From positions 992,001 to 1,056,000 of the forward strand of contig NZ_JANLCM010000002.1 in the NCBI RefSeq assembly GCF_024979235.1: 64,000 nt of DNA, in the 5' to 3' direction. A program made the position numbers and the translations under genes. Below are positions 45,092-64,000 of the stretch, piece after piece (position 1 is the first letter of the stretch; each line of letters begins with the position of its first letter). The notes beneath the pieces were generated by a model. That model ran no database searches. It had not been told where the DNA came from and saw only the letters and a program-made list of their open reading frames with translations. This stretch comes from Herbiconiux aconitum. Its GTDB lineage: Bacteria > Actinomycetota > Actinomycetes > Actinomycetales > Microbacteriaceae.

Positions 45092-48000
45092 CTACACCAG
45101 GCAGTTCGGCCCGAGCAGCGACTTCAGCTCGCCATACAGATCAGCCGTCACGTTCACGCCGAACGGCACCTCGAAGATGCGCACGTTGTCGTTCTTGATG
45201 AGCTTCAGTCGCACCTCGGTGTCGCCGGCGTGACGGATGAGCACATCGTTCAGCGCCTGCACGGTATCGGTGGTGGCGCGCGTCTCGGCGAGCGAGATCT
45301 GGAGTGGGCCCGCGGTTCCCACCTGCCCGAGATCGGGCTGGAACATGCTGAAGGCGTGGAGGTTCATGCCGTCGTCGCGGAGCGACACGCGACCGCGCAC
45401 CACCACGATGGCGTCGTTCGTGAGTGCCGGCCCGAACTCCTGATAGGTCTTGCCCATGAACATGGCGGTGATCTCGCCGTTGAAGTCCTCGACGGTGATC
45501 ATGCCGTACTGATTGCCCGAGTTCTTCGCCACGCGATGCTGCACGCTCGTGATGAGCCCCGCCACGGTGACCTGGTCGCCGTCTTGCGTGTGCTCGCTCT
45601 CGAGAAGATCGAGGATGGACGTCGACGCCACCTTCGCGAGCGGGATCTCGAGCCCCGCGAGCGGGTGATCCGACACGTAGAGCCCCAGCATGTCGCGCTC
45701 GAACGCCAGCTTGTCGCGCTTGGCCCACTCGGGGCGCACCGGGATGTCGTGAACCTCTTCGGGCGCATCCCACAGCGAGTCGAAGTCGAAGCCCACCTGG
45801 CCGTTGGCTTCGTTGCGTTTCTCTGAGACCGCGTTGTCGATCATCGCCTCGTGCACCTCGATGAGGGCACGCCGGGTCGATCCGAGGGAGTCGAAGGCGC
45901 CGGCCTTGATGAGCGATTCGATGGTGCGCTTGTTGGTGGCCTGCAACGGGATCTTCTTCAAGAAGTCGCCGAAGGAGGTGAAGGCGCCCTTCTCTTCGCG
46001 GGCGGAGCGGATCAACTCGACCACGTTCATCCCGACGTTCCGCACCGCACCCATGCCGAAGCGGATGTCGGTGTCGACGGCGGTGAAGAACCCGATCGAC
46101 TCGTTCACATCCGGCGGCAACACCTTGATGCCCATGCGACGACACTCGCTCAAGTAGAGCGCCATCTTGTCTTTGGAGTCGCCGACGCTCGTCAGCAGCG
46201 CCGCCATGTACTCGGCCGGGTAGTGCGCCTTCAGGTAAGCGGTCCAGTAGGAGATGACTCCGTAGGCGGCCGAGTGCGCCTTGTTGAACGCGTAGTCGGA
46301 GAAGGGAAGCAGGATGTCCCACAGAGTCTTGACCGCGGCCTCGGAGTAGCCGTTGTCGTGCATGCCCTTCGAGAAGCCCTCGTACTGCTTGTCGAGCTCC
46401 GACTTCTTCTTCTTGCCCATCGCGCGGCGCAGCAGGTCGGCCTGGGCGAGCGTGAAGCCGGCGAGTTTCTGCGCGATCGACATCACCTGCTCCTGGTAGA
46501 CGATGAGGCCGTAGGTGCCGCCGAGCACCTCCTTCAGCGGCTCTTCGAGCGAGGGGTGGATGGGGGTGATCGGCTGCAGCCCGTTCTTGCGCAGCGCGTA
46601 GTTGGTGTGCGAGTCGGCACCCATCGGCCCTGGTCGGTAGAGAGCCAGAACGGCCGAGATGTCTTCGAAGTTGTCGGGCTTCATCAGCCGGAGGAGACCG
46701 CGCATCGGGCCACCGTCGAGCTGGAAGACGCCGAGCGTGTCGCCGCGCGCGAGCAGATCGTAGGACGCCTTGTCGTCGAGGTCGAGGTCTTCGAGCACGA
46801 GCTTCTCGCCGCGGTTCGACTGGATGTTGTCGAGGGCGTCGTCGATGATGGTGAGGTTTCTGAGCCCCAGGAAGTCCATCTTGATGAGGCCGAGCGATTC
46901 GGCCGCCGGGTAGTCGAACTGGGTGACGATCTGGCCATCCTGCTCGCGCTTCATGATGGGGATGATGTCGATCAGCGGATCGCTCGACATGATGACGCCG
47001 GCCGCGTGCACGCCCCACTGGCGCTTGAGGTTCTCGATGCCGAGCGCCGTGTCGAAGACCGTGCGGGCCTCGGGGTCCATCTCGATGACGGTGCGGATGT
47101 CGACGGCCTCTTTGTAGCGCGGGTGCGCCTTGTCGAAGATGCCGGAGAGCGGGATGTCTTTGCCCATGATGGGCGGTGGCATCGCCTTCGTGAGCTTCTC
47201 GCCCATGCTGAACGGGAAGCCGAGCACGCGCCCCGAGTCTTTCAGCGCCTGCTTGGCCTTGATGGTGCCGTAGGTGACGATCTGCGCCACCCGCTCGTCG
47301 CCGTATTTCTCCGTGACGTACTTGATGACCTCACCGCGCCGCCGGTCGTCGAAGTCGACGTCGAAGTCGGGCATGCTCACCCGGTCGGGGTTCAGGAATC
47401 GTTCGAAGATGAGGCCGTGCACGAGCGGATCGAGGTCGGTGATCTTCATGGCATAGGCGGCCATCGATCCGGCGCCCGAGCCACGCCCGGGGCCGACGCG
47501 GATGCCGTTGCGCTTGGACCAGTTGATGAAGTCGGCGACCACGAGGAAGTAGCCGGGGAATCCCATGCCCTTGATGACGCCCACCTCGTAGTCGGCGCGC
47601 TCGCGCACCTCCTGGGTCACGCCGTTCGGGTAGCGCTCCTCGAGGCCCTTCTCGACCTCTTTCTCGAACCAGGTGGCCTCGGTCTCGCCCGCGGGAACCG
47701 GATAGCGCGGCATGTAGTTCGCCTTCGTGTCGAAGGCGACCTCGCACCGCTCGGCGATGAGCAGGGTGTTGTCGCAGGCATCCGGGTAGTCGCGGAACAG
47801 CTGCCGCATCTCCTGGGCCGACTTCAGATAGAACTCGTCGGCGTCGAACTTGAACCGGTTGGGATCGGAGAGGGTCGAACCCGACTGCACGCAGAGCAGC
47901 GCGGCGTGGGATGTCGCGTCATGGGCGTGCGTGTAGTGCAGGTCGTTCGTGGCGACGAGCTTGAGGTCGAGCTGCTTGGCCAGCCGCAGGAGGTCGGGCA

Positions 48001-48604
48001 TGATGCGGCGCTCGATCTCGAGCCCGTGATCCATGATCTCGGCGAAGAAGTTCTCTTTGCCGAAGATGTCGCGGAAGTCGGAGGCGGCTTTGACGGCTTC
48101 GTCGTACTGACCGAGCCGCAGGCGGGTCTGGATCTCGCCCGACGGGCATCCTGTGGTCGCGATGAGGCCCTTGCCGTAGGTGGAGAGGAGCTCGCGGTCC
48201 ATGCGCGGCTTGAAGTAGTAGCCCTCGATGCTCGCTTTCGACGACAGCCGGAAGAGGTTGTGCATGCCCTCGGTGGTCTCGGACAGCAGCGTCATGTGGG
48301 TGTACGCGCCGGCGCCCGACACGTCGTCGCCACCGCCGTTGCCCCAGCGCACCCGCGTCTTGTCGCCCCGATGGGTGCCGGGAGTGAGGTAGGCCTCGGT
48401 GCCGATGATGGGCTTGATGCCCGCTTCGGTGGCCGTCTTCCAGAAGTCGAAAGCACCGAAGACGTTGCCGTGGTCGGTGACGGCGACGGCCGGCATCCCC
48501 TGCTCTTTGGCCGCCTCAATCAGGGGTTTGACTCGCGCCGCGCCGTCCAGCATCGAGTATTCGCTGTGGACGTGCAGGTGCACGAAGGAGTCGTTCGAGG
48601 GCAC
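45092..48604 (-). CDS. dnaE: DNA polymerase III alpha subunit
   Basis: This 1170-residue replicative polymerase is of the DnaE1 type. The PHP domain opens with FVHLHVHSEYSMLDGAARVKPLIEAA, containing the metal-binding histidines of the proofreading-like exonuclease. The catalytic palm shows GPGRGSGAGSMAAYAMKITDLDP and RVSMPDFDVDFDDRRRGEVIKY (aspartates at about residue 410). The GRRAMGKKKK-like finger segment reads LLRRAMGKKKKSELD. The C-terminus holds an OB-fold region (DQVTVAGLITSVQHR) and a terminal domain ending LLGPNCLV. The start is GTG 48604; the frame stays open for 69 more codons, but those are non-conserved. Confidence 0.97.
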   Translation of the reverse strand: MPSNDSFVHLHVHSEYSMLDGAARVKPLIEAAKEQGMPAVAVTDHGNVFGAFDFWKTATEAGIKPIIGTEAYLTPGTHRGDKTRVRWGNGGGDDVSGAGAYTHMTLLSETTEGMHNLFRLSSKASIEGYYFKPRMDRELLSTYGKGLIATTGCPSGEIQTRLRLGQYDEAVKAASDFRDIFGKENFFAEIMDHGLEIERRIMPDLLRLAKQLDLKLVATNDLHYTHAHDATSHAALLCVQSGSTLSDPNRFKFDADEFYLKSAQEMRQLFRDYPDACDNTLLIAERCEVAFDTKANYMPRYPVPAGETEATWFEKEVEKGLEERYPNGVTQEVRERADYEVGVIKGMGFPGYFLVVADFINWSKRNGIRVGPGRGSGAGSMAAYAMKITDLDPLVHGLIFERFLNPDRVSMPDFDVDFDDRRRGEVIKYVTEKYGDERVAQIVTYGTIKAKQALKDSGRVLGFPFSMGEKLTKAMPPPIMGKDIPLSGIFDKAHPRYKEAVDIRTVIEMDPEARTVFDTALGIENLKRQWGVHAAGVIMSSDPLIDIIPIMKREQDGQIVTQFDYPAAESLGLIKMDFLGLRNLTIIDDALDNIQSNRGEKLVLEDLDLDDKASYDLLARGDTLGVFQLDGGPMRGLLRLMKPDNFEDISAVLALYRPGPMGADSHTNYALRKNGLQPITPIHPSLEEPLKEVLGGTYGLIVYQEQVMSIAQKLAGFTLAQADLLRRAMGKKKKSELDKQYEGFSKGMHDNGYSEAAVKTLWDILLPFSDYAFNKAHSAAYGVISYWTAYLKAHYPAEYMAALLTSVGDSKDKMALYLSECRRMGIKVLPPDVNESIGFFTAVDTDIRFGMGAVRNVGMNVVELIRSAREEKGAFTSFGDFLKKIPLQATNKRTIESLIKAGAFDSLGSTRRALIEVHEAMIDNAVSEKRNEANGQVGFDFDSLWDAPEEVHDIPVRPEWAKRDKLAFERDMLGLYVSDHPLAGLEIPLAKVASTSILDLLESEHTQDGDQVTVAGLITSVQHRVAKNSGNQYGMITVEDFNGEITAMFMGKTYQEFGPALTNDAIVVVRGRVSLRDDGMNLHAFSMFQPDLGQVGTAGPLQISLAETRATTDTVQALNDVLIRHAGDTEVRLKLIKNDNVRIFEVPFGVNVTADLYGELKSLLGPNCLV

Positions 48605-48804
48605 TGATTCTCCGGCTGTCTCGGCTTGGGTACCAAGTCTAAACGCCGGGTGGATGCGCCGTCCGGCGTGTCGTGCCGCCCGACGCATGCCGTGTCGGCC
48701 CAGCCCGTTCGATCGGAGGTCACAGGCGGGCACTACGCTGAGCACGCCACCGGCTCCGGCGGCATCCAGGGCCGCTTGCAATGCGGCTTGCAGTGGGGGA
48801 AGAA

Positions 48805-50559
48805 ATGACATTCACCGCGCGCACCAGCGCTTACATCATCGTCGCAGCAGCACTGGCAGCGGCCTTCGGGGCGGGAGGCACCGGGGCGTCAGCCACCGAT
48901 CTCGTGCCGGCCCCCTCGACTGCCACCGTCCATCAATTGGGCAGGTCGCTTTCCGGCACCTGGCGCGCGCCCTTCTCCGTTCCTGACACCCGCACCCTGC
49001 ACGTCGACCTGCCCCCCGAACTTGCCGGATACGACATCGACGGTCTGAACTGGTCGCTGAGCGGATACTCCGAGGACGTGACAGGATCGATCCCTGCCAC
49101 GGTCACCTCCTTCGACATCGCTGTGCCGCAAGAATTCCCGAGGAGCTCCCTCGTCGAGGTGACGATCACAAGCGCAGCCGGGTCGTCTTCCGACCACGTG
49201 CGACTCGAAGCCATGCTGGACAACTCTGTCGGTCCTATCGGCGTCCCGCCGCGCACCGTCGCCGACGTGGACTTCTCACTCACGAAGGCGCTGCAAAGCC
49301 AGGTCGACTACTCATACTCCGCATTCCCTTCGCCCGCATTCATCTCACCCGGCGGCACACTGACGCTCGCGGGCACGTATGACCTGTGGGGCAAAGGTCC
49401 GAACGGAGACTGGAGCGACCCAGACAGTCTGTTCGTCGAAGCCGACCTCATCGACGCCGCCTCCGAATCCAGCATCCAGCTTGACTACGACATCGCCGAC
49501 GATGGTGATTCTTTGCAGTTGACCGTCCCGGCCACTCTGCCGGCAGGATTCGAGGAGTCGAACGATCTGAGAGTGAGTGTGACGATCATCCCGGACGCGT
49601 CCGGTTCGGCGCTCACCACGCGCCTGAGCTTCAGCGTGCGCGTCCTCTTCGACCAGGACCCGGTGATCGACCGGATCACGGGCGCCGATCGCACTGCCGT
49701 GGCCGTGGCCGTCTCCGAGCAGGCCTACCCCGACGGAGCGCCGGTCGTCTACGTCGTGACGGGCTCGAACTTCCCGGATGCGCTGAGCGCCGGCCCCGCG
49801 GCGGCAAAAGAGGGCGGGCCCCTGTTACTGACGACGGGTGCGAGCCTTGCGCCCGCCGTAGCGGACGAGCTGCACCGGTTGCATCCGTCGAAGATCGTTG
49901 TCGTCGGCGGGCCGGCGTCCGTTCCTCAAAGCGTCTTTGCCCAGTTGAACCAGATCGCGGCCACCGATCGAGTGTCGGGAGCGGATCGCTACGAGGTGTC
50001 GCGCAACCTGCTCGCCTACGCGTTCCCGAACGGCAGCTCGTTCGCCTACGTGGCCACCGGCGCAACCTTCCCGGACGCCCTGAGCGCAGGCGCACCAGCC
50101 GGCAAAGCGGGAGCGCCGGTCGTGCTCGTGAACGGCGCCTCCGATGCCGTCGACGCCCCGACAGCGGAAGCGCTGCGCTCGCTGCACCCGGAATCGCTGA
50201 CCGTGGCCGGTGGACCGGCCTCCGTGTCGCCTGGCATGGAGAAGTCGCTCGCCTCGATCGTGATCACGAACAGGATCGGAGGCGCAGACCGCTACGCGGT
50301 CTCGACGGCGATCATCGACAGCGCCTACGCCTTCGTGAATCGCGCCTTCTTGGTTACCGGGTCGAACTTCCCCGACGCGCTGTCCGGCGCGGCGTGGGCT
50401 GGGGTGCTCGGCGCACCGCTCTATGTGGTGCACACCGACTGCGTGCCGCCCGCGGACCTCGCGGCGATGCGCCTCCGTGGAGTGCAGGAGGTCACGCTGA
50501 TCGGAGGCCCGGTGTCGCTCACAGAAGATGTCTTCGAACTCACACCGTGTGCTTCCTGA
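48805..50559 (+). CDS. Secreted cell-wall-binding (CWB2) repeat protein
   Basis: This 584-residue exported protein has a signal peptide at residues 1-33 (MTFTARTSAYIIVAAALAAA, probable cleavage after GASA). About 255 residues of beta-rich, Ig-like sequence follow. Three cell-wall-binding repeats 2 (about 290-390, 390-485 and 485-584) then each start with a GADR box and carry FPDALS, a VVGGP-type strand and VS. These repeats bind anionic wall polymers non-covalently, so the N-terminal part is presented outside. The first ATG would add eight residues, but GGGGGA upstream of 48805 favours the start used. It precedes the convergent giant-protein operon and is divergent from dnaE across a 200-nt gap with no clear signal. 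Confidence 0.92.
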   Translation: MTFTARTSAYIIVAAALAAAFGAGGTGASATDLVPAPSTATVHQLGRSLSGTWRAPFSVPDTRTLHVDLPPELAGYDIDGLNWSLSGYSEDVTGSIPATVTSFDIAVPQEFPRSSLVEVTITSAAGSSSDHVRLEAMLDNSVGPIGVPPRTVADVDFSLTKALQSQVDYSYSAFPSPAFISPGGTLTLAGTYDLWGKGPNGDWSDPDSLFVEADLIDAASESSIQLDYDIADDGDSLQLTVPATLPAGFEESNDLRVSVTIIPDASGSALTTRLSFSVRVLFDQDPVIDRITGADRTAVAVAVSEQAYPDGAPVVYVVTGSNFPDALSAGPAAAKEGGPLLLTTGASLAPAVADELHRLHPSKIVVVGGPASVPQSVFAQLNQIAATDRVSGADRYEVSRNLLAYAFPNGSSFAYVATGATFPDALSAGAPAGKAGAPVVLVNGASDAVDAPTAEALRSLHPESLTVAGGPASVSPGMEKSLASIVITNRIGGADRYAVSTAIIDSAYAFVNRAFLVTGSNFPDALSGAAWAGVLGAPLYVVHTDCVPPADLAAMRLRGVQEVTLIGGPVSLTEDVFELTPCAS

Positions 50560-50604: not shown

Positions 50605-53600
50605 TCAGAGCAGGAGTTCGTCGGTGTAGACCAGGCGACGCTCCCAGACCGCGTTCCCGGGATGCCCGGCCTCGTCTCCCGGGATGTCCGGGTCGCCCGC
50701 GAACTCCTCCCATTCGCGCACCCGGACCCGCCAGAGCGAGGCCGGTGGGTCGGCGGGCTCCGATCCCCCACCCGCGAGCGGACGTCGCAGCGGCAGCACC
50801 TCGGGCGAGACGAGTTCGGCGCCCCAGATGAGATCGGCGGGTGGCTGCCGATCCGCCGACCGGGCACCCCACTCGCCCATCGGGGTGTGTGCCACGGTCG
50901 TCCAGCCGAGGTCTCCCCCGATTGCCGCATCGAAGCGTTCGAGCGACGCCGACATCGCGCGGCGCCTCTCGCGCGCCACCGTGGGGTCGTACTGCTCCGC
51001 CGCACCCGAGACGAGAACCCGGATGCCGCGCTCGTCGGTGCGCAACACCGTGAGCGCGCGTTCTGGCGGCAGCTGCGCGAAATCGGCGCGCACCGCAGTG
51101 GAGAGGTGGAGCCCGGCCAGGCTGACCGGCTGGTACCGCGCCACCGCCAGCCGCACGAACGGCCACAGCGCCGGCGTCTTCTCGAATGCGATGTCGACGA
51201 ACCACAGACCTCGCGACGCGCTGAAGGCCGGGGCGTAGGCGACCGCCTCGACCGAGACCATCTCGGGCACCGCATCCGTCGACAGCGGAAGGGAAAGCCG
51301 CAGCTGCCCGGTGGCGGGATGACCACCTGCGGCGTCGCCGAGCGCGAGATCGGGCGCTTCGAGGGTGATGGGCCGGATGCGGCGGGCCGGCAGGGTACGG
51401 CCGGCCCACACTGGGTCGCGACCCCACTGGCTCACCCAGTCCACGTCGTCGGCGGCCGACGCACGCGAAGGCTCCGCCGCCATCAGCACGGCGAGCAGCT
51501 CGCCCTCCCCCGTGGCGAACCAGGGCCGTTCGAGGTAGACACGCAGACCCGACCGCCGTTCCCGTCGGCGGGCGAACGGCTGATCGGCGGCCGGCTCGTC
51601 GAACCAGCGGAACAGCGGCACGACCGAGTGCACCGCCGGCGCGGGCGGACGGGCCGACGACGGGATGTCGAGCACGATCGGATCGCTCAGCACGCTCTTG
51701 CCGTCGTCGCGCGGCCAGACGGCATCGGATCGGGGGTCGGATGCCGGCAACTCCGCCGGGTCGCCCCCCGCCTCCGGTCCAGCCCCCACCGGAGAAGGCG
51801 GCGCGGGCAGCGGAACCGGGGCGATCGCATCCGGGCCGAAGTATTCACGGAACCGTGTGGTCGCCCGCAGCCGGTAGGTCACGCGGCGAAAGCGGGTGTC
51901 GGCGAACTGGTGGTTCGCCTCGGCGAGCGCCCACCCGTCGTCGTTTGCTCCGCCCGGCAGGATGCGGCCGTTGAGTTCGGCGACCGTCTGACGCGGGTCG
52001 ATGCCGGCGGTGAACCCGATGTCGGTCATCCATCGGAACACCGGACCGAGCGCCGCCGGGTCGTCGACCGTCTCCCGCCAGCGCGCCTCGGCGGTGAGGG
52101 ATTCGGTGCTCGATCCGTGCACCACGACGGTGCCGCGGAGGGTCGCCACGGCGGCCGCGACGTTCCGCAGCACGAACAGGCCGCCCGCGCGGGGTGCGGC
52201 GACGGGGCGGGGTACCGCGTGCACCAGACGCAGTTCTTCGGCCGGTGTGAGTGCCCACAGCGCGCCGTCACGGGCCGCGGCGGAGGCGACCGAGGTGAAC
52301 GACCACGGGAGCGCCCGCCACACCCCGAAGAGGTCGAGCGAACGCCCTTCGAGCGACGACGACAGCGCGAACCGCTGCTCGGAGCCGGCCGGCAATCCGA
52401 ACACGATGCGACGGCCGTCGACCCGGGCGTCGAGCACGTCGGCGGCGGCGAGCTCCAATCGGAACGGCTCGGCGAACGGCCACGTGCCGAGATAGGGAGC
52501 CGTCACCGCGGCCTCGCTGAGCACCGGCCGATACCGCTCGTCGCGCCGTGGCGGGAACGACAGCGAGAGTCCGGCGGCGAGCGGATCGGGCAGATACGGC
52601 AGTTCGGCGAACTCGGTGTCGTGCACCACGTACTGCCCCGGTGCGAGAACATCGTTCGGTCCGGGCAGCGTGGTGGGAACGTCTTTGTCGCGGAGCGCTC
52701 CCGGCTCGGTGTGGAGCGACACGTAGCCGAGCGGATGCGGGGGTGCGGCCGGATCTGCGGCATCCGAGACCTCGTCGTCGAAGAACGAGCCGCTCTCGCG
52801 GAACGACCAGGCGAGCATCGTCGACCGCGCGGCCGCCGCACCGGCGCCCGTGGTGTCGAGTGCCTCGTCGAAACGGCCGTGCAGCTCGCACTGCAGCTGA
52901 CTCGTCTTCGGCGGCGCCAGATGGCGAGCGGATGCCGGCACCACCGGGTCGTGGACGGTCACCGCCCCGGTCGCGCGATCCTGGGTCACCTCGGAACGCA
53001 GCACCACCACGCGCAGCGACTCGCCCTCGGTGTAGGGCTTCTCGGGAACGATGGCGGGCGGCGGCACCGGGTCCCAGCGCAGGAAGGGCGCGGGCGGGGT
53101 GACGGCGCGGAGGGTCTCGGCGTCGGCGACCCCTGGGTCGAGCGGGCCCCGCGGGTCGGCGGTCCAGTCGTCGAGCAGATGCTCGCGCGTGTTGCCCGCG
53201 AGGTCGACGCCCCAGGCACGGAACGCGTAGTCGCGGCCGAACCGCAGTCGCGGCAGCGATCCCGGCTCGACCCGGTGGTCGAAGCGGAACGGGTCGGGCG
53301 GTGCCTCGGCGGGCTCGGGCGGCTCGGCGTCGACTTTCTCGTCGATCGTGTAGCCGCCGTCGGCGTCGCGGCTGAGCTCGTCGCGCAGCCACCGCCCGGG
53401 CCGCGGGGCGGAGAGACTCCAGCCGTCCCAGCCGAACAGGGTCTCGTGCACGTGCAGGGTCGCATCCGGGGCGTCGGAGTTCTGACGCGCGGCCGTGCCC
53501 TGCGTGAAGCCCTCGAGCGGCACGTCGTCGAGGATCAATTCGCCCGCTCCCGGTCCCCCGCGGCCACCGGTGTCGTCGAGGCGGAGCGTCGTGCGGCGCC

Positions 53601-54930
53601 GGTGCAGCGAGTGCCAGAGGCCCGTCGTGAGGTCGAGCGCCTCGACCCGGTATCCCCGGGTGACGTCGGTGGCACCGACGGTCGGAGCGGTCGTGACGTC
53701 GGGGTTCGCCTCGAGCTCGACGACGAGCGCGCGCTGCCGCTCGGCCTGCGGGGCCGTCTTCTGATCCTGGCGCAGCCGCGCGACCGCGAACCCGGTCGCG
53801 CGGAGGGCGGGCGGGGCGCCGGTGACGTCGTCGCCGTTGCGCTCGAGGCGCGCCATCCGGGGCAGCGCCATCACGAAGCGCTCGGTCTTGAGCGCCGACC
53901 CGTCGGGATCGACCGTCATCAGCGCGAAGGCCTCCGAGTTGCCGACCGCCAGGCGCCCCTCGCTCCACTCGGCGGCCCGCGACGGGTCGGGCTCGGCGAT
54001 GAGCGATCGGTCGTCGAGCATCCGCACGAGGGTGCGCGGCGATCGCGACAGGCTCTCGTCGCCCGCCACCGCGACCACGGCGGCGATCCATTGCGACCCC
54101 GCCAAGCGCCCGGGGTCGGAAACGCGCAGGTCGAGTACGAGCCCGAGTCGTCGGAGGAGCTCAGGATGATCGCCGGCCGAGCCGACCCGGCGGTGGAACT
54201 CGGCACCCGGCACCGGGAGGGGCTGGGGCGGGATGTCGATCGCCGCCGACCGGTCGTCTTCGTAGAACCTTCGCGCCTTGTAGGAATCGGCGACGAGCGC
54301 GTGCACCCACTCCGCGGAGTAGACGGGTGCTCCCTGCTCGTCGGTCTGCCACTCCACCCGGTCGAGACTCGGGTTGTCGCCCTGACGACGCGCGATGGCC
54401 TCGGTGATTCCGGGTTCGTTCACCGGCGGAGCCGTGCGCGAATACTCCGACTCGTCGACGAAGGGCACGTCGAGCCGGCGCAGCACCTCGCGGAGCGGTT
54501 CGAACAACGGATGCCGCGAGGGCGCGGGCGGCACGCTCGGCCCGGCCAGGGTCGACGCCACGACAATGCTCTTCGACGCCTCCGACAGGCCGGCCGCCGG
54601 AAAGCTCGCCCACTCGCGGGCCGACCAGTCGGGCGGGTCGTTCGACTCGACCGGCAGTTCGGGCGGGAACACCCGTGCCCACAGCGAGGAGTCGCCGTTC
54701 GGCACCAGCTCGCACTCGATCGGTCCGTCCTGATCGAGGAGGGTCACCGTGATCTCGCCCTGGCCGAGCAGCTCACCCCAGCGTGCGAAGACTCCGAAGT
54801 CACCGAGGGGCTCGCCCGCGACATCCGGAACCAGTCGCGGGGTCACGAACAGCGACACGTGAAATCCGGACGCGGGTGCGTCGGCCGCCGAATGCGGCAG
54901 GGCGGTGGCGATGAACGACTCAGACGGCAC
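50605..54930 (-). CDS. Giant uncharacterised protein (1441 aa), second gene of a two-gene operon
   Basis: I do not recognise a named family. The protein has no signal peptide or membrane helix, is poor in lysine, rich in Asp, Arg and Pro, and is dominated by beta-strand patterns. Noted segments are VTRGYRVEALDLTTGLWHSLHRR near residue 430, FGRDYAFRAWGVDLAGNTRE near residue 570 (a fibronectin-III-like closing pattern), and near residue 1270 VRLAVARYQPVSLAGLHLS followed by RADFAQLPPER. The end, REWEEFAGDPDIPG...RRLVYTDELLL, looks like a conserved terminus. It starts 28 nt downstream of the 1311-residue partner on the same strand and must be co-transcribed. No enzymatic motif was found. Confidence 0.7.
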   Translation of the reverse strand: MPSESFIATALPHSAADAPASGFHVSLFVTPRLVPDVAGEPLGDFGVFARWGELLGQGEITVTLLDQDGPIECELVPNGDSSLWARVFPPELPVESNDPPDWSAREWASFPAAGLSEASKSIVVASTLAGPSVPPAPSRHPLFEPLREVLRRLDVPFVDESEYSRTAPPVNEPGITEAIARRQGDNPSLDRVEWQTDEQGAPVYSAEWVHALVADSYKARRFYEDDRSAAIDIPPQPLPVPGAEFHRRVGSAGDHPELLRRLGLVLDLRVSDPGRLAGSQWIAAVVAVAGDESLSRSPRTLVRMLDDRSLIAEPDPSRAAEWSEGRLAVGNSEAFALMTVDPDGSALKTERFVMALPRMARLERNGDDVTGAPPALRATGFAVARLRQDQKTAPQAERQRALVVELEANPDVTTAPTVGATDVTRGYRVEALDLTTGLWHSLHRRRTTLRLDDTGGRGGPGAGELILDDVPLEGFTQGTAARQNSDAPDATLHVHETLFGWDGWSLSAPRPGRWLRDELSRDADGGYTIDEKVDAEPPEPAEAPPDPFRFDHRVEPGSLPRLRFGRDYAFRAWGVDLAGNTREHLLDDWTADPRGPLDPGVADAETLRAVTPPAPFLRWDPVPPPAIVPEKPYTEGESLRVVVLRSEVTQDRATGAVTVHDPVVPASARHLAPPKTSQLQCELHGRFDEALDTTGAGAAAARSTMLAWSFRESGSFFDDEVSDAADPAAPPHPLGYVSLHTEPGALRDKDVPTTLPGPNDVLAPGQYVVHDTEFAELPYLPDPLAAGLSLSFPPRRDERYRPVLSEAAVTAPYLGTWPFAEPFRLELAAADVLDARVDGRRIVFGLPAGSEQRFALSSSLEGRSLDLFGVWRALPWSFTSVASAAARDGALWALTPAEELRLVHAVPRPVAAPRAGGLFVLRNVAAAVATLRGTVVVHGSSTESLTAEARWRETVDDPAALGPVFRWMTDIGFTAGIDPRQTVAELNGRILPGGANDDGWALAEANHQFADTRFRRVTYRLRATTRFREYFGPDAIAPVPLPAPPSPVGAGPEAGGDPAELPASDPRSDAVWPRDDGKSVLSDPIVLDIPSSARPPAPAVHSVVPLFRWFDEPAADQPFARRRERRSGLRVYLERPWFATGEGELLAVLMAAEPSRASAADDVDWVSQWGRDPVWAGRTLPARRIRPITLEAPDLALGDAAGGHPATGQLRLSLPLSTDAVPEMVSVEAVAYAPAFSASRGLWFVDIAFEKTPALWPFVRLAVARYQPVSLAGLHLSTAVRADFAQLPPERALTVLRTDERGIRVLVSGAAEQYDPTVARERRRAMSASLERFDAAIGGDLGWTTVAHTPMGEWGARSADRQPPADLIWGAELVSPEVLPLRRPLAGGGSEPADPPASLWRVRVREWEEFAGDPDIPGDEAGHPGNAVWERRLVYTDELLL

Positions 54931-54958
54931 GGCGGGCTCCTTCGCTTCTCGACCGCTG

Positions 54959-57900
54959 CTATTCGACGGCGAACGCGTCGAGGTACTCGTCCCAGGCGCT
55001 CGTCGAGCCGTCGGGTGCGGTGATCATCTCGCGGAAACTGGGGTCACCACCCGAGCCGGCGAAGCGCCGTTCGGCGTGGAAGCTGACGGACTTGCTGAAG
55101 CCGAACACCTCGATCGTCAAGGTCACCGTTGCCGAACCGATCATCTTGCCGGTCGAGAACTCGTAGGTGAGCACGATCGAGAGTTCGAGCGATGCCGAGG
55201 CGATGCCGAGCACGTCGACCTCGCCGCGCATCCGGAAGTATCCGGTGAGCGATCCGGCGTCGCCCTCCAACCGCAGGTAGATGCCGATCGCGACCGAGAT
55301 CGAGCCGGAGGCGACCCCGAGGTCGACCGACAGATAGGCGCCGGCCTCGAGACCGAGTTCGAGCAGCTCGAGCCGCTTCGGCGACATCCTGAGGCCGAAC
55401 CAGCCCCCTCCTCCGATGCAGAGCACGGTCAACGTGAACGGCCGTTCGCGACTGCAGAAGTCGAAGCCCACGCTCACCGATTCGCCGAGGAACGGCACGC
55501 GCACGTACGCACCGAGCGAGATGTTCGCCAGCGCGAAGATGCCCACGGCGAGGTTCGGCAGGGCGAGCGTGAACCCGGCCTTCAGCTCCGATGGCGAGAT
55601 GTCGGTGTAAGGCGGATCGGAGAATCCGTCGAAGGGAATGAGGTCTTTCAGGGTCTGCACGAACGAGAGCACGCCGACGAACTCGATGTCGCGGAACACC
55701 ACGTCGACCTCGGTCTTGCCGCTCGATCCGGAGTGGAACGAGAAACGATCGAACAGCACCACCACCATGTCGGCCCCCGGCATCAGGTGCAGCTCGAAGT
55801 CGACCAGCTCGGCCAGGATCTCGACGGAGGCGTGCCCGGTGCCGCTGGCCCGACCGGTGACCGAGAGAGTGAGGTTGCGGCCACGGTTCGGCCCGGCCAG
55901 CACGAAGACGGGGCTTCCGGCGGGCCAGTCGGTGATCTCGGGCTGCCAGTCGTAGCGGTAGACCAGCTCCGCTTTCGCGAGGTCGCCGGAGGTGAGAGCG
56001 CGGTAGGCGGCACGGATGTCGCCGATGAGGCTCGTGAGCGACGCCGCATGTTCGAGGGCCTCTCCGACGTCGGCGAGCTGGTGGCGGATGAGCGGTGGCA
56101 GCTTCGCTCCGAGAGCACGGATGTCGGCCGCCACCCGCGCGAGCCCCTCGCGGAGCTGCTGCTCGGCAGCCACGGCGGCAGCGTCGTCGGCACCGACGGC
56201 GGCCGTCACGATGTCGGGCAGGGCGGCGGCCAGCGACGCGGCGTCGGTGGCCAGGGTCTCGGCGGCCGCCAGGGTCGCCTTCGCGTCGTCGATCATGGAC
56301 TGCGCCGCGTTCGTGAGGCCGGCGACCTGCTGCTGCGCCTGCTGCACCGCGTGTTCGGCGGCGGCTTTCGCGCGCTCCACGTCATCGGCGAGTTTCTGCA
56401 GAGCATCCATCGTCTGCGACACGACGGCCGGCGCCGACGAGAAGTCGTGGCCGATGATCTCTTCGAGGGGAATCAGCCCGAAGAGCTTCGGCAGAGCGCC
56501 GGCCAGCGCCGCCGACGGGTCGAACTGCTGCGTCATCGCGCCGTCGGGGTCGCCGACGATGCCGGTGAGCGCCGACAAGCCGGCGAGCGGCTGGCTCGGC
56601 TGCACGAATCCGCCGCCCGACTCGCTGCTGTGATCGGGGTCGCCGAACGAAAGGATCGGCACCTGCTGCAGGGTCGCTTCGCCGTCGAGCACGACATCGA
56701 CGTAGTCGACGTTCGTGATGTGCTCCTCGGTCAGGGCGATGGCCCAGACCTTGCCGGTGTTCGCGGCCGAGAACCCCTCGGTGCGATAAGTCGAGTGGTA
56801 GGCGATGGTGAGCGAGTCGACCCCCGCGATCTGTTTCGCAGCGGTCACCACCACATCCGCGGAACTCACGCGCGGAGTGGCGGTGCCGAGGCCCGCCTTG
56901 CCCCGGAAGCGCAGGAGCCTGGTCTCGACGATAGGGTCACCGCCGCCCGGCGGCGAGACCGGGCCCGATCGCGGCAGCGGTGGGGCGAAGGCGATGCGCT
57001 GCCCGCGGGCGGGCACTGAGCGAAGCGGGCTCGCGTCGTACTCCGCGTCGATGGCCGCCTGTTGGGCCGCAGCCGACGCGTGCTCGGCGACCCAGAGCAG
57101 GGGCATGTCGAGGTGAGTGGTCTTTCCCGACTTGTCGATCCCCTCGACGTGGAACGGAAACGGCATCCCGCCCACGGTGGGCCAGAACTTGTCGCCATTC
57201 GTCGCCCCCTCGTCGAGGTCGGGGGTGATGACCGGCGACAGACGAATGCTCACGAAGGGGAACTCGTTCGAGTCATAGCTGTTGACCGGCTGGGTGACCG
57301 CCAGGAAGCGGTGCTGCACGAGCTCGGCGACCGGATCGTCGGAGGGCCGGATGACACGTTGCGTGACCTTCACCAGCACGGTGCGGTGCCCGAGCGGGTA
57401 GAGGTAGCCGGGGTAGACGACGCGCACGTACTGGTCGCGACCCCCGGTGGCGACGTGATCCCAGGCGAGGATCGACGCGATGCCCGCCGCGGAGTAGGGC
57501 TTCGTGTTCCATTGGCCGTGCAGGTCGAGTGCTGCGCCGTAGGCCGAGAGCCAGAGACGGCGCGCGGCGACGGGAACCGGCGGAATGGGGGTGGCACGAC
57601 GGTTCGGAGCCCACGACTCGCTCGACTGCCGCACGAGTCTCTGGCGATCGGAGCGGTTGAGGCTGCCGAGGAAGGGCTTCTCGTCGGCGGGTGTGGCGTC
57701 GAAGAGGGCGCCACCGGCCTGGTCGGCTTTCGGATCGGTCCACTGCTGGTCGAGCAGGCCGTCGCGATCGCGGGTCCAGACGGCGCGCACGATGCGCCGA
57801 CGGTCGTCGGGATCGTCGACACCCTCCGGATCGCGCACGAGGCGGGTGTGCCACAGCTCGACCAGCTCGGGTCGCCCCGTCTCGGGCGGGTCGTCGCCGT

Positions 57901-58894
57901 GCACGGGCTCTGCGGCGTGCATCCAGCGTGCGTCGGCAGCGGGCGAGACGGCGAGGCGGAAAGGGGCCTCGATCGAGGTCTCGCCGGCCTCGGGGGGTCG
58001 ACTCAGCGTCGATGGGTCGAGCTCGACGCCCGGAAAGAGCTGCCCACCCGGAAACACCGGGCGCAACCAGTTCGGGTTGCGGTCGATCGTGAATCCGCGA
58101 GCGGGCTGCAGCGGGTTGGTCTGCAGGGCGTCGAGCACACTGCTGCGGTTCTGTGCGAAGAGGTCGCGCGTGGCGCTGCGAGACAGCTTCTCGAGGCGGG
58201 CCTTCTCCGTCGTGGTCGTGGCGGCGAGCTCGACGACGCCGTCGCGGAGGCGCGCCCGCATGCCGGTGTCGACGATGATCCAGGGCCAGATGAGGATCGG
58301 CGGGAAGTCGGGATACGCGACCGGCGCCTCACCGGGTGTGGCGAGCGGATGCACCCGCATCGTCAGAGAGGGCAGCAGCGCCAGGATGCCTGCCGTGCTG
58401 AGCGGCACCGCCAGGTCGGCGGGCAGCGCGAAGACGAGACGGGATGCGCGGGCGGGGCGGAACCGGGTCGGCCCGCCGGGCACCACCACGTCGGGTGCCG
58501 GTTCGGCCGCGCTCGTCGAGGGCAGCATTGGAGGTTGGGGGGCGCCGGCCGCCTCGTAGCGCGCGCTCTCGTGCGCGTGCTGGAACGGGAAGTGCACGGC
58601 CAGGGTCGGAGGATCGGCCGCGACATCCACGCCCCCTGCTGCGCGTAATTCGGGGCCGGTCGCGCCGTCGACGGCTTCGACCCCGTGCCAGACGGTGACG
58701 AGGGAGACGAGATCGCTCGCCCGCGTGACCGGCACGACCAGGTCTCCGTCGCCGATGGGCGGGAGGGCCACGCCATCAGACCGCGGCGCGATCGCCTTCC
58801 ATTCGGCCGCGGCCCACACTCGCACGCGTTCGTCGACAGATCCTGGCATCGCTGCCCCCACCGGATAAGGCTCGCAACGCGTGAGCGTCTGCAC
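54959..58894 (-). CDS. Giant uncharacterised protein (1311 aa) with coiled coil and repetitive beta C-terminus, first gene of the operon
   Basis: No named family is recognised. Residues 1-780 are mixed and rich in Pro, Asp and Arg. About 820-950 form a long Ala/Gln/Glu coiled coil (VERAKAAAEHAVQQAQQQVA, DDAKATLAAAETLATDAASL). About 970-1290 are a run of amphipathic beta strands with alternating hydrophobic residues and Gly turns (AYLSVDLGVASGSISVAIGI, YFRMRGEVDVLGIASASLEL, IGSATVTLTIEVFGFSKSVS), like a beta-barrel or lipid-binding groove. No signal peptide is seen. GTG 58894 has GGTGGAG five bases upstream; an ATG at 58849 is an alternative. A structural or envelope-transport role is possible but unproven. 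Confidence 0.7.
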   Translation of the reverse strand: MQTLTRCEPYPVGAAMPGSVDERVRVWAAAEWKAIAPRSDGVALPPIGDGDLVVPVTRASDLVSLVTVWHGVEAVDGATGPELRAAGGVDVAADPPTLAVHFPFQHAHESARYEAAGAPQPPMLPSTSAAEPAPDVVVPGGPTRFRPARASRLVFALPADLAVPLSTAGILALLPSLTMRVHPLATPGEAPVAYPDFPPILIWPWIIVDTGMRARLRDGVVELAATTTTEKARLEKLSRSATRDLFAQNRSSVLDALQTNPLQPARGFTIDRNPNWLRPVFPGGQLFPGVELDPSTLSRPPEAGETSIEAPFRLAVSPAADARWMHAAEPVHGDDPPETGRPELVELWHTRLVRDPEGVDDPDDRRRIVRAVWTRDRDGLLDQQWTDPKADQAGGALFDATPADEKPFLGSLNRSDRQRLVRQSSESWAPNRRATPIPPVPVAARRLWLSAYGAALDLHGQWNTKPYSAAGIASILAWDHVATGGRDQYVRVVYPGYLYPLGHRTVLVKVTQRVIRPSDDPVAELVQHRFLAVTQPVNSYDSNEFPFVSIRLSPVITPDLDEGATNGDKFWPTVGGMPFPFHVEGIDKSGKTTHLDMPLLWVAEHASAAAQQAAIDAEYDASPLRSVPARGQRIAFAPPLPRSGPVSPPGGGDPIVETRLLRFRGKAGLGTATPRVSSADVVVTAAKQIAGVDSLTIAYHSTYRTEGFSAANTGKVWAIALTEEHITNVDYVDVVLDGEATLQQVPILSFGDPDHSSESGGGFVQPSQPLAGLSALTGIVGDPDGAMTQQFDPSAALAGALPKLFGLIPLEEIIGHDFSSAPAVVSQTMDALQKLADDVERAKAAAEHAVQQAQQQVAGLTNAAQSMIDDAKATLAAAETLATDAASLAAALPDIVTAAVGADDAAAVAAEQQLREGLARVAADIRALGAKLPPLIRHQLADVGEALEHAASLTSLIGDIRAAYRALTSGDLAKAELVYRYDWQPEITDWPAGSPVFVLAGPNRGRNLTLSVTGRASGTGHASVEILAELVDFELHLMPGADMVVVLFDRFSFHSGSSGKTEVDVVFRDIEFVGVLSFVQTLKDLIPFDGFSDPPYTDISPSELKAGFTLALPNLAVGIFALANISLGAYVRVPFLGESVSVGFDFCSRERPFTLTVLCIGGGGWFGLRMSPKRLELLELGLEAGAYLSVDLGVASGSISVAIGIYLRLEGDAGSLTGYFRMRGEVDVLGIASASLELSIVLTYEFSTGKMIGSATVTLTIEVFGFSKSVSFHAERRFAGSGGDPSFREMITAPDGSTSAWDEYLDAFAVE

Positions 58895-59010
58895 ATCCGC
58901 TCCACCGCGTCAGCCAGATTTTAGGGACTTGGCAATTCCACGACAAGGCTTTCGGGTCAATTCGCCTCGCTTCCCTCGCGCCGGCATTCGCGGCGATACC
59001 GCTGGGGCGC

Positions 59011-59229
59011 TCACCACGGCAGCATCCCCAGCTCGTCCTGGAACGTGCCCGTCGGGCCGACCCCACTCCCGTCAGCACCGCGCGTCGCCAGCCGCACCAC
59101 GATTCGAGCACTCTCCTCGGGCGACCGCCCACCCTCGAACCCGGCGGTCATGTCGGTCGTGGTGTAACCGGGCTCGAGAGCGTTGAACGTGATGCCCGGC
59201 TGCGACTTGGCGTAGTGGACGGTCAAATC
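59011..59229 (-). pseudogene. C-terminal fragment of a short-chain dehydrogenase
   Basis: The fragment begins LTVHYAKSQPGITFNALEPGYTTTDMT, the catalytic-Lys helix and following strand of classical SDRs, and ends naturally at LGMLPW. The whole N-terminal Rossmann half with the glycine-rich loop, the catalytic Ser and the Tyr is missing. Upstream DNA is immediately occupied by the 3' end of the DUF389 gene on the same strand, so a deletion or rearrangement has fused the two. About 70 residues could be translated from TTG 59226 but would lack cofactor binding. The 116-nt gap to the giant gene start shows nothing else clear. Confidence 0.8.
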
Positions 59230-60963: not shown

Positions 60964-63900
60964 CTACTGCGCACTCACGATGTAGTCGAGCGTGCCGGTG
61001 TAGGTGTCGCCGCTGACGAACGGAATGTCGACCCGGAAGTCGTTGCTCACCGCATCACCCGACGGCGGGGTTGCCGAGTTCTGGTTCCCCACGACGATCG
61101 GGGCGGGCGACAACGGCACGAACACCGTGTCACCGCTCCCCCGCACGGCGAGGTCGGTGATCGGGATGATGTCGGGGTTCGCCGGATCGGCACCGGTCAG
61201 CGCGGAGCCTTGCGATTGCACCGACACGACGTATCCGCCGGCGCTGTTGGTGGTGACGGTCATCGTCACTGCCCCGTTCGACGTGACGGTGGTGTTCGGC
61301 ATGCCGGAGAGGGTGAAGCCTTCCGTCAATCCGGAGAGGCTGATGGTTCGCGCCGCGACCGGCACCGACACGGAGCAGGGGGCGGTGGCCTCGCCACCGA
61401 GGCAGGTACTGCCGAGCGAAGTCGACGACACGGAGTTCACGAGCACCGCGGTGTCGCTGGCGCTCAGGTCGGCGGTGACCGAGTAAGTGATGGTCACCGT
61501 CGCGCCGCGCACGAGCAGTCCGCTCCATTTCAGTGTCGAACCGTCGAGGCTCAGCGAGCCGAGGCTGCTTGTCGCGTCAGCGTTGTAGACGGCGTTCGTC
61601 AGTACACCGCTGAGGTCGTCGGCGAGTTCGGCCGCCGGGTAGTCGACCTCCCCGGTGTTGGTCGCTTGAATCGTGTAGCGCAGCTCGCCACCGGCGACGA
61701 CCGCGCTGCTGTCGGCCGTCTTGCTCACCGATAATGCCGGAACGAGCACGGTGACGGTCGTGGAGCATCCGGGCTCCGTCGTGGTGGCACAGGAGGCACC
61801 CGGCGCCGCTGATGCGACGGCATTCGTCAAGGTGCGGTCGCCGCCAGCCGGGAAGAGCGCGGTCACCGAGTAGGAGACTGTCACAGTGTCGCCCATCGCG
61901 ACGGCTCCCGTCCAACTGAGCGCCTGGGCACCTCCGGAGTACGCGACGTCGCCGCTGGTGGCCACCGCATCGCCGTTGTAGCTCGCGTCATCGAGCACCT
62001 CGGTGAGCGAGTCGACGAAGGTGGCCGGCGCGTAATCGGTCTCGCCGGTGTTCGTGAGCGTGACCGTGTAGGTCACGATCTCTCCGGCGGCGACGCTCGT
62101 CACGTCGGAGGCCTTCGTGATGGCCAGAGCGGGCACGAGAACCTGCACCACGGTCAGGCAGGCCGAGGTCGTGCTGCCGGGCGGGCAGGTGCTGCCGGGT
62201 GCCGACGACTCCACGGAGTTCGTCATCGCCTTGTCTCCGAGGTCGGGGTCGTCGACCGTGATGCTGTAGCGGATGGTCGCGCTCGCTCCGATCGCCAGGT
62301 CGCCGGTCCAGCTGAGTACGGGCGATGCGAACTGGAGCGTGCCGCTCGAGGCCGTCGCGTCGCCGCCGTAGACGGCGTCCGTCAACACGCCGGCGAGGGA
62401 GTCCGAGACGACCGCGGCCGTGTAGAACGTCTCGCCGGTGTTGGTGATCACGATCGTGTAGCCCATCGACTCCCCCGGGGTGACGGTCGCTGCATCCGCT
62501 GTCTTGATGATCGTGAGCTGCGGCACCAGCACGGCGACGGACACGGTGCACGACGGGTCGGTGCTGCTCGGGGAGCACGTGCTGCCGGCATCCTCGCCGA
62601 CGACGGCGCTCGTGAGCACCCGGTCGCCCTCGTCCGGATCGTCGACGATGGCCGCAAAGGTGATGACGGCGGTCTGACCCACGAGGAGGCCTCCGGTCCA
62701 GGTCACGTCGCCATCGACGACCTGGGCCACACCGACCGTCGCGTTCGTGGCTCCATCGATGCGCCCGTCGTCGACAACGCCGGCGAGCGAGGCGTGCACG
62801 GTCGCGGCCGGGTAGGCGGTCTGCCCCACGTTCGCCACCGTGATGGTGAACACGACGCGACTGCCCGGCGCGGTGGTGGTCTCGGATGCGGCGATGTCGA
62901 TGGCGAGCCCCGGCACGAGCACGGCGACGGTGCTGGTGCAGCCGTCGACGCTGCAGACTGTCCCGGGTTCGGCCGAAGCGACCGTGGTGGTGAGGGTGAG
63001 GTTGCCGAGGTCGGGGTCGTCGACGACGAGGGCATAGACGATCGTGGCGGACTGCCCCACAGCGAGGTTGCCGGTCCACGCCAGGGTGGATTCGGCCGCC
63101 ACGAACACCACGGTCCCCCTGCTGGCGGTGGTGCTCGCCGTCGACGGAGCGGCGGTGTCGTCGAGCGCCCCGGCGAGCAGCACCGCGACCTCTGCGCCCA
63201 CGTAGTCGGTCTGACCCGTGTTGCTGATGGTGACGGTGTAGCCGACGGATGCGCCCGGCATCGTCGTGGTCATATCGGCCACCACGGAGAGCTCGAGCCC
63301 CGGCACCAGCACGGTCACGATGTTCGAGCACGTCGCGCCGCCGCCACCGGGTCGACAGGTATTGCCGAGCTCCGTGGAGCTCACCGAGGTCACCATCTCC
63401 CGGTCGCCCGGGTCGGGGTCGTCGACCCGGATGACGTGTGTGATGACGACCTCGTCGCCGACTCCGAGATCGCCCGTCCAGCGCAGGGTCGGGCCGGTCA
63501 GCACCAGGGCGCCCCGATCGGCGGTGCCCGACTCGTAGATGCCGTCGTCGAGCGCCCCGTTGAGCGCGATGGTGACGGATGCCGCGGTGTACGGCGTCTG
63601 CCCCGTGTTGCGGGCGGTGGTCGTGTACGTCACGAGCGACCCGGGCGCAGCGGTGGAGGTGTCGGCGGTCGTGCTGATGGTGAGCGCCGGCAGCAGCACG
63701 GTTACCGAGGTGGTGCACCGCGCATCCGCCGAACCCACCGGGCAGTTGTTCGCGATGGCGTCGGTGCTGAAGACCGTGCTCACGACGCCGTCGCCGGCCG
63801 GCGGATCGATGACCGTCACCGATCCGGTGACCGTCACCGTCTGCCCCACGTCGATGGTGCCCGTCCACACGACCTTTCCCGAGCCGGCAACCAGGATCAG

Positions 63901-64000
63901 GCTGCCGGAGTCGGCCGTGGCGTCTCCGTTGTAGACCGCGTCGTCGAGGGCGCCGACGAAACTGTCGCTGATCGTAACGTCGGTGTAAGGCACCTGGCCG
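60964..64000 (-). CDS. Giant DUF11-repeat surface protein, C-terminal part (5' end beyond the window)
   Basis: The open frame covers the whole right end: about 1012 residues are visible and the start lies outside. Six complete and one partial repeat of about 130 residues are present. Each opens like LTISTTADTSTAAPGSLVTY, carries NTGQTPY or NTGETDY, then GALDD or GVLTDAVYGGDATAS, LSWTGDLAVG, VDDPD and a Cys pair (NTC...C), and ends VTVLVPA. The two Cys per repeat may form a disulfide. A different C-terminal domain (about 130 residues) ends SGDTYTGTLDYIVSAQ and has no anchor. It is likely a long adhesin or stalk on the cell surface. The downstream small protein may supply the membrane anchor. 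Confidence 0.88.
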   Translation of the reverse strand, partial: GQVPYTDVTISDSFVGALDDAVYNGDATADSGSLILVAGSGKVVWTGTIDVGQTVTVTGSVTVIDPPAGDGVVSTVFSTDAIANNCPVGSADARCTTSVTVLLPALTISTTADTSTAAPGSLVTYTTTARNTGQTPYTAASVTIALNGALDDGIYESGTADRGALVLTGPTLRWTGDLGVGDEVVITHVIRVDDPDPGDREMVTSVSSTELGNTCRPGGGGATCSNIVTVLVPGLELSVVADMTTTMPGASVGYTVTISNTGQTDYVGAEVAVLLAGALDDTAAPSTASTTASRGTVVFVAAESTLAWTGNLAVGQSATIVYALVVDDPDLGNLTLTTTVASAEPGTVCSVDGCTSTVAVLVPGLAIDIAASETTTAPGSRVVFTITVANVGQTAYPAATVHASLAGVVDDGRIDGATNATVGVAQVVDGDVTWTGGLLVGQTAVITFAAIVDDPDEGDRVLTSAVVGEDAGSTCSPSSTDPSCTVSVAVLVPQLTIIKTADAATVTPGESMGYTIVITNTGETFYTAAVVSDSLAGVLTDAVYGGDATASSGTLQFASPVLSWTGDLAIGASATIRYSITVDDPDLGDKAMTNSVESSAPGSTCPPGSTTSACLTVVQVLVPALAITKASDVTSVAAGEIVTYTVTLTNTGETDYAPATFVDSLTEVLDDASYNGDAVATSGDVAYSGGAQALSWTGAVAMGDTVTVSYSVTALFPAGGDRTLTNAVASAAPGASCATTTEPGCSTTVTVLVPALSVSKTADSSAVVAGGELRYTIQATNTGEVDYPAAELADDLSGVLTNAVYNADATSSLGSLSLDGSTLKWSGLLVRGATVTITYSVTADLSASDTAVLVNSVSSTSLGSTCLGGEATAPCSVSVPVAARTISLSGLTEGFTLSGMPNTTVTSNGAVTMTVTTNSAGGYVVSVQSQGSALTGADPANPDIIPITDLAVRGSGDTVFVPLSPAPIVVGNQNSATPPSGDAVSNDFRVDIPFVSGDTYTGTLDYIVSAQ
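61370..64000. repeat. Tandem coding repeats of about 390 bp (DUF11 units)
   Basis: The linker codons for VLVP recur at about 61740, 62130, 62521, 62911, 63302 and 63688, a step of 385-392 nt. Units are similar but not identical at DNA level, so they are old duplications rather than recent copies. The array continues past the window edge. Confidence 0.85.

Follow-up and report, generated by a model that had tools for sequence, protein, structure and literature searches.

A mobile two-gene module of giant proteins outside the known families, with a possible role beyond the cytoplasmic membrane

Hitchhiker complexes are known for the twin-arginine translocation (Tat) pathway, PaoABC being one example (PMC4273604). 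Here we compare with these complexes a pair of adjacent giant genes, which we call A and B, found in a 64,000-nucleotide stretch of the Herbiconiux aconitum genome (NZ_JANLCM010000002.1, positions 992,001 to 1,056,000; hereafter the window). As in a hitchhiker complex, one subunit carries a Tat signal, seen on 11 of 82 A proteins, while its operon partner has none (0 of 69 B proteins). However, the subunits are much larger than those of hitchhiker complexes, A of the window lacks a signal, and both A-B interaction and export are only proposed.

In its AlphaFold model, A contains a curved, long-stranded antiparallel meander that resembles outer-membrane β-barrels such as OmpG over ∼190 residues, but this meander is fused to a soluble part of ∼1000 residues, and the conservation of its faces is mixed. 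The Microbacteriaceae, which are among the carriers of the pair, have no outer membrane. The last third or more of B is modeled as sandwiches like those of fibronectin type III (FN3) surface proteins, although B has no Pfam FN3 match, signal peptide, or anchor. One relative bears a database label referring to the Tc toxin component TcA, which is unsupported by Pfam, and both the gene layout and the partner of Tc toxins differ from those of our pair. Lastly, the TANFOR polymorphic toxins of Bacteroidetes are large proteins encoded near FN3-containing secreted proteins (PMC7073777), but neither the neighbors we examined nor A and B of one Bacteroidota locus gave an NCBIfam match.

Pairing, selection, and spread of A and B

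The two genes lie on the minus strand of the window:

54959-58894 (-): gene A, 1311 amino acids, GTG start, transcribed first of the pair
50605-54930 (-): gene B, 1441 amino acids, GTG start, second of the pair

A and B form one unit, a conclusion supported by gene order, co-occurrence, and shared divergence. Scanning species genomes with A yielded 79 loci, or 80 with the window. B directly follows A on the same strand in all 78 loci whose contig continues; in the other two of the 80, the contig ends inside A. The gap between the genes has a median of 4 nt and ranges from -14 to +99 nt (62 loci scored). Among 396 genomes of the window's phylum, we detected A in 11 and B in 12, with all 11 contained in the 12. 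In the twelfth genome, the narrower profile missed A even at E 0.01, but the wider profile revealed a divergent A adjoining B (E 7e-40), raising co-occurrence to 12 of 12. Pairwise distances between A proteins track those between B proteins (Mantel r 0.957, 64 loci); none of 1000 permutations was as high, the maximum being 0.095. L043 and L073, in which A is fragmented, and a second, partial pair at L022 were left out of the A sets for distances, gaps, and Tat scans, while the B sets exclude L025, in which B is fragmented, as well as any short or cut B. (At L043, B is also in fragments.) The pair is thus a clean two-gene genetic unit, present in ∼3% of the sampled genomes of the phylum (12 of 396, the window's own included).

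Both A and B are real genes under purifying selection. In comparison with Herbiconiux daphne, dN/dS is 0.139 for A (1306 codons) and 0.146 for B (1441 codons). The first-pass annotation of the window had described two adjacent same-strand genes under selection, with strong third-position GC bias and no membrane helix, and had treated them as a single unit. All of these points were borne out. The stop codon of A and the start codon of B are 28 nt apart, both frames are intact, and GC content at codon positions 1/2/3 is 0.71/0.51/0.88 in A and 0.76/0.55/0.88 in B. No membrane helix is evident in either protein, because the maximal mean Kyte-Doolittle score over 19 residues is at most 1.75 in A and at most 1.50 in B.

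The pair is a mobile, standalone two-gene module that is transferred as a unit. The 80 loci span nine phyla: Actinomycetota (51), Pseudomonadota (19), Bacteroidota (2), Balneolota (2), and Acidobacteriota, Cyanobacteriota, Chlorobiota, Rhodothermota, and Myxococcota (one each), with the window's row unassigned. A tree of A (64 rows) splits deeply in two, with several phyla on either side, and shows nine changes of phylum against a minimum of six; in it, a Lysobacterales copy is sister to Phycicoccus. Presence is patchy. Within the genus, 2 of 16 genomes carry the pair, and in the family 5 of 299 match, three of them convincingly and two weakly, through helices only. In one further genome of the genus (L092), the 1.5 kb ahead of the neighboring DnaE-type polymerase reaches B, while the same 1.5 kb at 12 other loci (L091, L093-L103) gave no match to B. 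A matches twelve plasmid records and B matches ten; we found no copy in phages or viral contigs.

The flanking genes are ordinary and vary between loci. We searched Pfam with 50 upstream open reading frames (ORFs; L013 contributing two) and 52 downstream ORFs, from the 72 and 67 loci that have such an ORF; these were picked by a greedy length rule and by hand, and some may not be genes. Among the 25 of 35 upstream families listed, nucleotidyltransferase and methyltransferase occur in 2 of the 50 ORFs and the others in 1, while each of the 25 of 44 downstream families listed occurs in 1 of the 52. No third gene of at least 90 amino acids is common to most loci.

The window is part of contig C2 of a 4.16 Mb genome in five contigs, in which A is present once, and the closest relatives of both proteins are from Herbiconiux. 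Putative start signals precede each gene:

58918-58946 (-): sigma-70-like promoter match, TTGTCG-N17-TAAAAT, 23 nt 5′ of the A start; a consensus match only
58900-58906 (-): GGTGGAG, a putative ribosome-binding site read from the sequence, 5 nt ahead of the GTG of A
54937-54942 (-): AAGGAG, a putative ribosome-binding site, likewise read from the sequence, 6 nt ahead of the GTG of B

The promoter match is the only one in 9 kb (mean of 0.2 in shuffled sequences). An alternative start of A is possible, as there is an ATG at residue 16 and the homologue P0001 has 1296 amino acids. A long antisense frame (50662-55023, +) was taken to be a by-product of high GC content, because hundreds of homologues were found for the minus-strand frames, the only ones that the homologue search covered.

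Known families and predicted folds

Each homologue search scored the 8000 candidates that share most words with the query and listed 120 of them. Among the scored candidates, 739 were homologues of A and 1387 of B at E ≤0.001. The names among the 120 listed for each protein were hypothetical or uncharacterized, except for stray TolA-binding, Tc toxin domain, and gas vesicle labels. A search with a remote R. leguminosarum relative found eight proteins, none of them named.

Searches against collections of known families gave little more. In Pfam and NCBIfam, A and B had no match beyond weak chance or helix-only rows. PADLOC returned no family for A, B, and four neighbors (E ≤0.01), and sequence searches of the PDB returned no match for A or B up to E 1. 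In PHROG, B had no match and A had weak tail-protein rows on its helices (best E 1.5e-4). Using profiles of 25 A relatives added almost solely helix matches in the PDB, and profiles of 24 B relatives found nothing there below E 0.1. FN3 was also absent at the sequence level, with no Pfam family in B and no FN3 row in the 24 B relatives. Consistent with the first-pass annotation, which saw no named system here, no described system or family matched and no profile placed both proteins in a characterized family, while their homologues co-occur. By the tests run, we rate the pair as belonging to no known kind; the folds of its domains are common ones.

AlphaFold models, which lack A 1-111 and B 1-241 (the A model is m13af8ce4eea5), and alignments suggest the following layout:

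57335-58009 (-): A 296-520, well conserved part of the N-terminal half, from invariant alignment columns
55988-56404 (-): A 831-969, helical bundle in the AlphaFold model
55061-55873 (-): A 1008-1278, predicted long-stranded antiparallel β meander, from the AlphaFold model, fold alignment, and column entropy
54962-55054 (-): A 1281-1311, conserved C-terminal tail, from alignment and model
54511-54930 (-): B 1-140, conserved N-terminal segment ALPHS...FHVSLFV.PRL..., from alignment; outside the modeled stretch
50608-52218 (-): B 905-1441, predicted fibronectin/Ig-like β sandwiches

The conserved part of A carries the motifs EAPFRL.SP, RAVW.RDR, and GRDQYVRV.YPGYL.P.GH...KVTER. This signature is also found in two remote giants, and most rows of the fold-alignment list do not cover it. 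Where the first-pass annotation had read a long coiled coil, A models instead as a bundle of shorter helices (831-969). The β-rich repeat region that it described is real (1008-1278), and the lowest column entropy of modeled A is found within this meander, from about residue 1062 on. In a second-look structure aligner, the modeled meander matches barrels (OmpG and others) over ∼190 residues. The annotated GDPSF motif is present, but rather than forming the very end of A, it opens a tail of ∼31 residues that ends in WDEYLDAFAVE. Many relatives share the tail as GDP[ST]...W..YC.AFA; it is partly helical, with a block pLDDT of ∼52-68, and is a candidate docking peptide. For B, the fibronectin-like character that had been proposed holds at the level of the predicted fold, with the last third or more modeled as FN3-like β sandwiches, but not at the level of Pfam families.

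Five remote relatives, carried on alphaproteobacterial plasmids, are giants. These are from Agrobacterium vitis (A of 3039 amino acids, B in two genes), Ruegeria (A 3311, B 1899), S. meliloti LMB1 (A 3052, B 1766), R. ruizarguesonis (A 3106, B 1780), and S. meliloti HM006 (A 2277, B 1560). The A proteins of A. vitis and Ruegeria align with significant scores in both the core signature and the meander; similarity to the Ruegeria core led to the other three, whose B was assigned by position and size. This count leaves out unannotated plasmid hits and a broken relative from Paraburkholderia (L115).

Export signals and explanations of the pair

The 11 Tat signals among the 82 A proteins, 76 of which have their N-terminus inside the contig, compare with a mean of 0.6 and a maximum of 4 in shuffled A N-termini. 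The 69 B proteins were read around the real start; an earlier scan of the first 120 residues of the longest frame gave the same result for A and 0 of 70 for B. The Tat-positive A proteins comprise every one of the five alphaproteobacterial giants that we examined, plus six from Bacteroidota, Balneolota, Chlorobiota, and Myxococcota. On pC of S. meliloti LMB1, a gene for a 55-amino acid TatA/TatE protein begins 49 nt after B. LysM domains are present in two Williamsia A proteins and one Mycobacterium A protein (E 4e-27, 9e-26, and 1e-25). Since some A proteins carry Tat signals and some carry LysM, the N-terminus of A appears to be exchangeable and, in a minority, to be concerned with export or the envelope. 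A of the window has neither of these features. The first-pass statement that signal peptides are absent holds for A and B of the window but not for the family, and the secretion link that it suggested is strengthened by relatives (Tat signals on A and tatA in one locus) but not by A of the window.

Wherever a Bacteroidota, Balneolota, or Chlorobiota locus has sequence beyond B (four of four: L030, L034, L048, and L050), B is followed by a protein of 650-713 amino acids that ends in tryptophan and has, by eye, a signal-like N-terminal stretch. Nearby, each of these loci also has an ORF belonging to another shared family, with lengths of 369, 359, 332, and, where it is cut, 167 codons.

We tentatively favor, at a little short of an even chance, a model in which A and B are the two parts of an obligatory giant complex that is inherited as a cassette and works beyond the cytoplasmic membrane in several lineages at least, with A as the carrier and B as the hitchhiker. 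We infer that the proteins bind each other physically, are co-exported, and bind a hydrophobic or surface ligand. A would consist of the exchangeable N-terminus (Tat, LysM, or variable), a conserved β-rich core, the helical bundle, and the C-terminal meander, which may form a lumen or groove or may pack on the partner. B, which lacks a signal, would be an elongated scaffold of fibronectin-like sandwiches. In bacteria whose A bears a Tat signal, folding and assembly of both proteins would take place in the cytoplasm before their joint exit, with B hitchhiking; outside, the sandwiches of B would scaffold or bind, and the core and meander of A would bind a ligand, perhaps a hydrophobic one. In the window bacterium, where no signal is present, the pair may use another route or work inside the cell. 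A bolder version, in which this is a new kind of giant complex exported whole by Tat, with its own TatA in one Sinorhizobium and a different or lost route in Actinobacteria, is one that we consider unlikely, though worth keeping in view.

A number of observations weigh against a carrier and hitchhiker that work outside the cell. No Tat motif was found in 71 of the 82 A proteins (six of the 71 are cut at a contig edge), and the Tat-positive proteins are confined to few lineages. At the N-terminus of A of the window, there is no twin arginine with a hydrophobic stretch behind it, and reading the A N-termini by eye revealed none that was conspicuously Sec-like. Only one of the five giant loci contains tatA, and tblastn with this gene detected no second copy among the collected loci. 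The structural evidence is also mixed. Foldseek with the A model gave no PDB match under E 0.001, so the likeness to barrels rests on the second-look aligner. In the strands at 1160-1210, the polar face is the more conserved (column entropy 0.67-1.24 vs 1.11-1.52), and over all meander strands the entropy of the hydrophobic face is 1.26 vs 1.48 (p 0.12), a result that is mixed by strand with respect to a transmembrane barrel, whose lipid-facing hydrophobic side should be less conserved than the inner one. Finally, PMC6708511 puts the size of Tat cargo at ∼150 kDa, and A and B of S. meliloti (3052 and 1766 amino acids) are far larger. This excess is the chief objection to the model or else its chief discovery. 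The Tat signals, together with tatA beside B, raise a testable question, namely whether a complex of this size can cross the membrane folded. If it can, accepted ideas on the limit of Tat would change, and the pair would be a new envelope system of nine phyla; if it cannot, the Tat signals on A must mean something else.

The abundance of proteins without a Tat signal (71 of 82 A and 69 of 69 B) would fit a giant complex that stays in the cytoplasm of most bacteria as a scaffold, storage body, or defense device, with Tat signals and LysM domains as late additions in a few lineages, and several plasmid-borne relatives are indeed near restriction or DNA-modification genes. However, PADLOC returned no match, the flanks of the 79 loci are ordinary and variable, Tat signals occur in three lineages of the family, and FN3-like domains typically belong to surface or secreted proteins; we regard a cytoplasmic complex as unlikely. 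The first-pass annotation had also considered lipid handling, and A and B could act as a carrier or bridge that serves lipids or hydrophobic molecules of another kind, with a meander whose hydrophobic face points inward and with B holding it between surfaces. In the strands at 1213-1263, the hydrophobic face is strongly conserved (entropy 0.60-0.90 vs 1.29-1.69), and microsomal triglyceride transfer protein fills the first two PDB rows from Foldseek, while vitellogenin and P47 appear within the first seven. These rows are weak, however (E 0.001-0.02, probability 0.08-0.20), porins rank among them, the polar face is the more conserved one in the strands at 1160-1210, and no lipid gene is a steady neighbor in the flanks. 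Lipid handling is therefore compatible with part of the data, but nothing shows it; we judge a lipid carrier distinctly unlikely, and catalytic or lipid roles of the pair are guesses.

A two-part secreted weapon or pore former, in which B would bind targets through its FN3-like domains and the meander of A would insert into membranes, could explain why the pair is patchy, mobile, and made of two giant subunits, and would suit the barrel-like fold match. It could also draw on the UniRef label "Tc toxin complex TcA C-terminal TcB-binding" of one relative. But this label is not reproduced by Pfam, which finds no family in that relative (P0004) up to E 0.1 and has no such row in 25 A relatives. 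Moreover, there is no widely shared third gene that could confer immunity in a search that covered genes of at least 90 amino acids, and the hydrophobic face is not the variable one at 1213-1263; we consider a weapon improbable. The least probable reading, which we give very little weight, places the pair in a contractile injection system or phage tail, as a component or as cargo. Such systems often contain coil and LysM domains; A has the weak PHROG tail matches on its helices, there is one weak viral tail-protein row, and LysM-bearing Williamsia A also shows a below-cutoff match to Phage_tail_X. On the other hand, the sheath gene (PF04984) was not found in the window genome and is present in 3 of 12 pair-bearing genomes, the pair was not found in phages or viral contigs, and the flank families listed include no tail family. 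For the window genome, this reading is already unlikely.

Neighboring genes and further observations

Directly upstream of A, the window contains what looks like a gene remnant (59011-59226, -; 71 codons before the stop), which we take to be the C-terminal part of a short-chain dehydrogenase. Farther upstream, at 60964-63993 (-), is a large repeat protein with DUF7927/DUF11 domains that is open at the window end and is probably a surface protein. On the other side of the pair, a cell-wall-binding repeat protein (48781-50559, +; PF04122, E 2e-48) lies between B and a gene for a DnaE-type polymerase (45092-48811, -). In H. daphne, only 58 nt separate the end of B from the beginning of the dnaE match, leaving no room for the PF04122 gene. 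The polymerase is ∼32% identical to the product of a second DnaE-type gene in the same genome; at this identity, one of them is probably DnaE2/ImuC. On p3 of R. ruizarguesonis (L116), too, genes for an error-prone polymerase and ImuA lie within ∼10 kb of the giant pair.

Four plasmid-borne relatives (L083, L084, L116, and L117) are possibly in defense islands. Genes near them include dpdE/dpdF; an AAA ATPase with an endonuclease; an HsdR-like gene; and an N-6 methylase with a nuclease, a helicase, and a WYL protein. On the Paraburkholderia sabiae plasmid (L115, 13887-16333), the A-like region is annotated as three short genes and appears to be either broken or differently annotated. In Nocardia abscessus (L022, 18649-22894), the first pair is followed downstream by another, shorter A and the beginning of another B, a tandem duplication. 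In Mycolicibacterium agri (L021, 7904-9403), A has N-terminal tryptophan-rich repeats that by eye resemble lectin propellers, in which Pfam finds no family.

In Williamsia and Micropruina, a tyrosinase (PF00264) is encoded within or close to the pair (L027, 17569-19344; L028, 17569-19308; L031, 368-2128; L012, 1855-3282). It has a DUF7868 end, as tested in L027, and is followed by an ORF of a separate shared family, which, reading it by eye, we take to encode a DUF2182 membrane protein.

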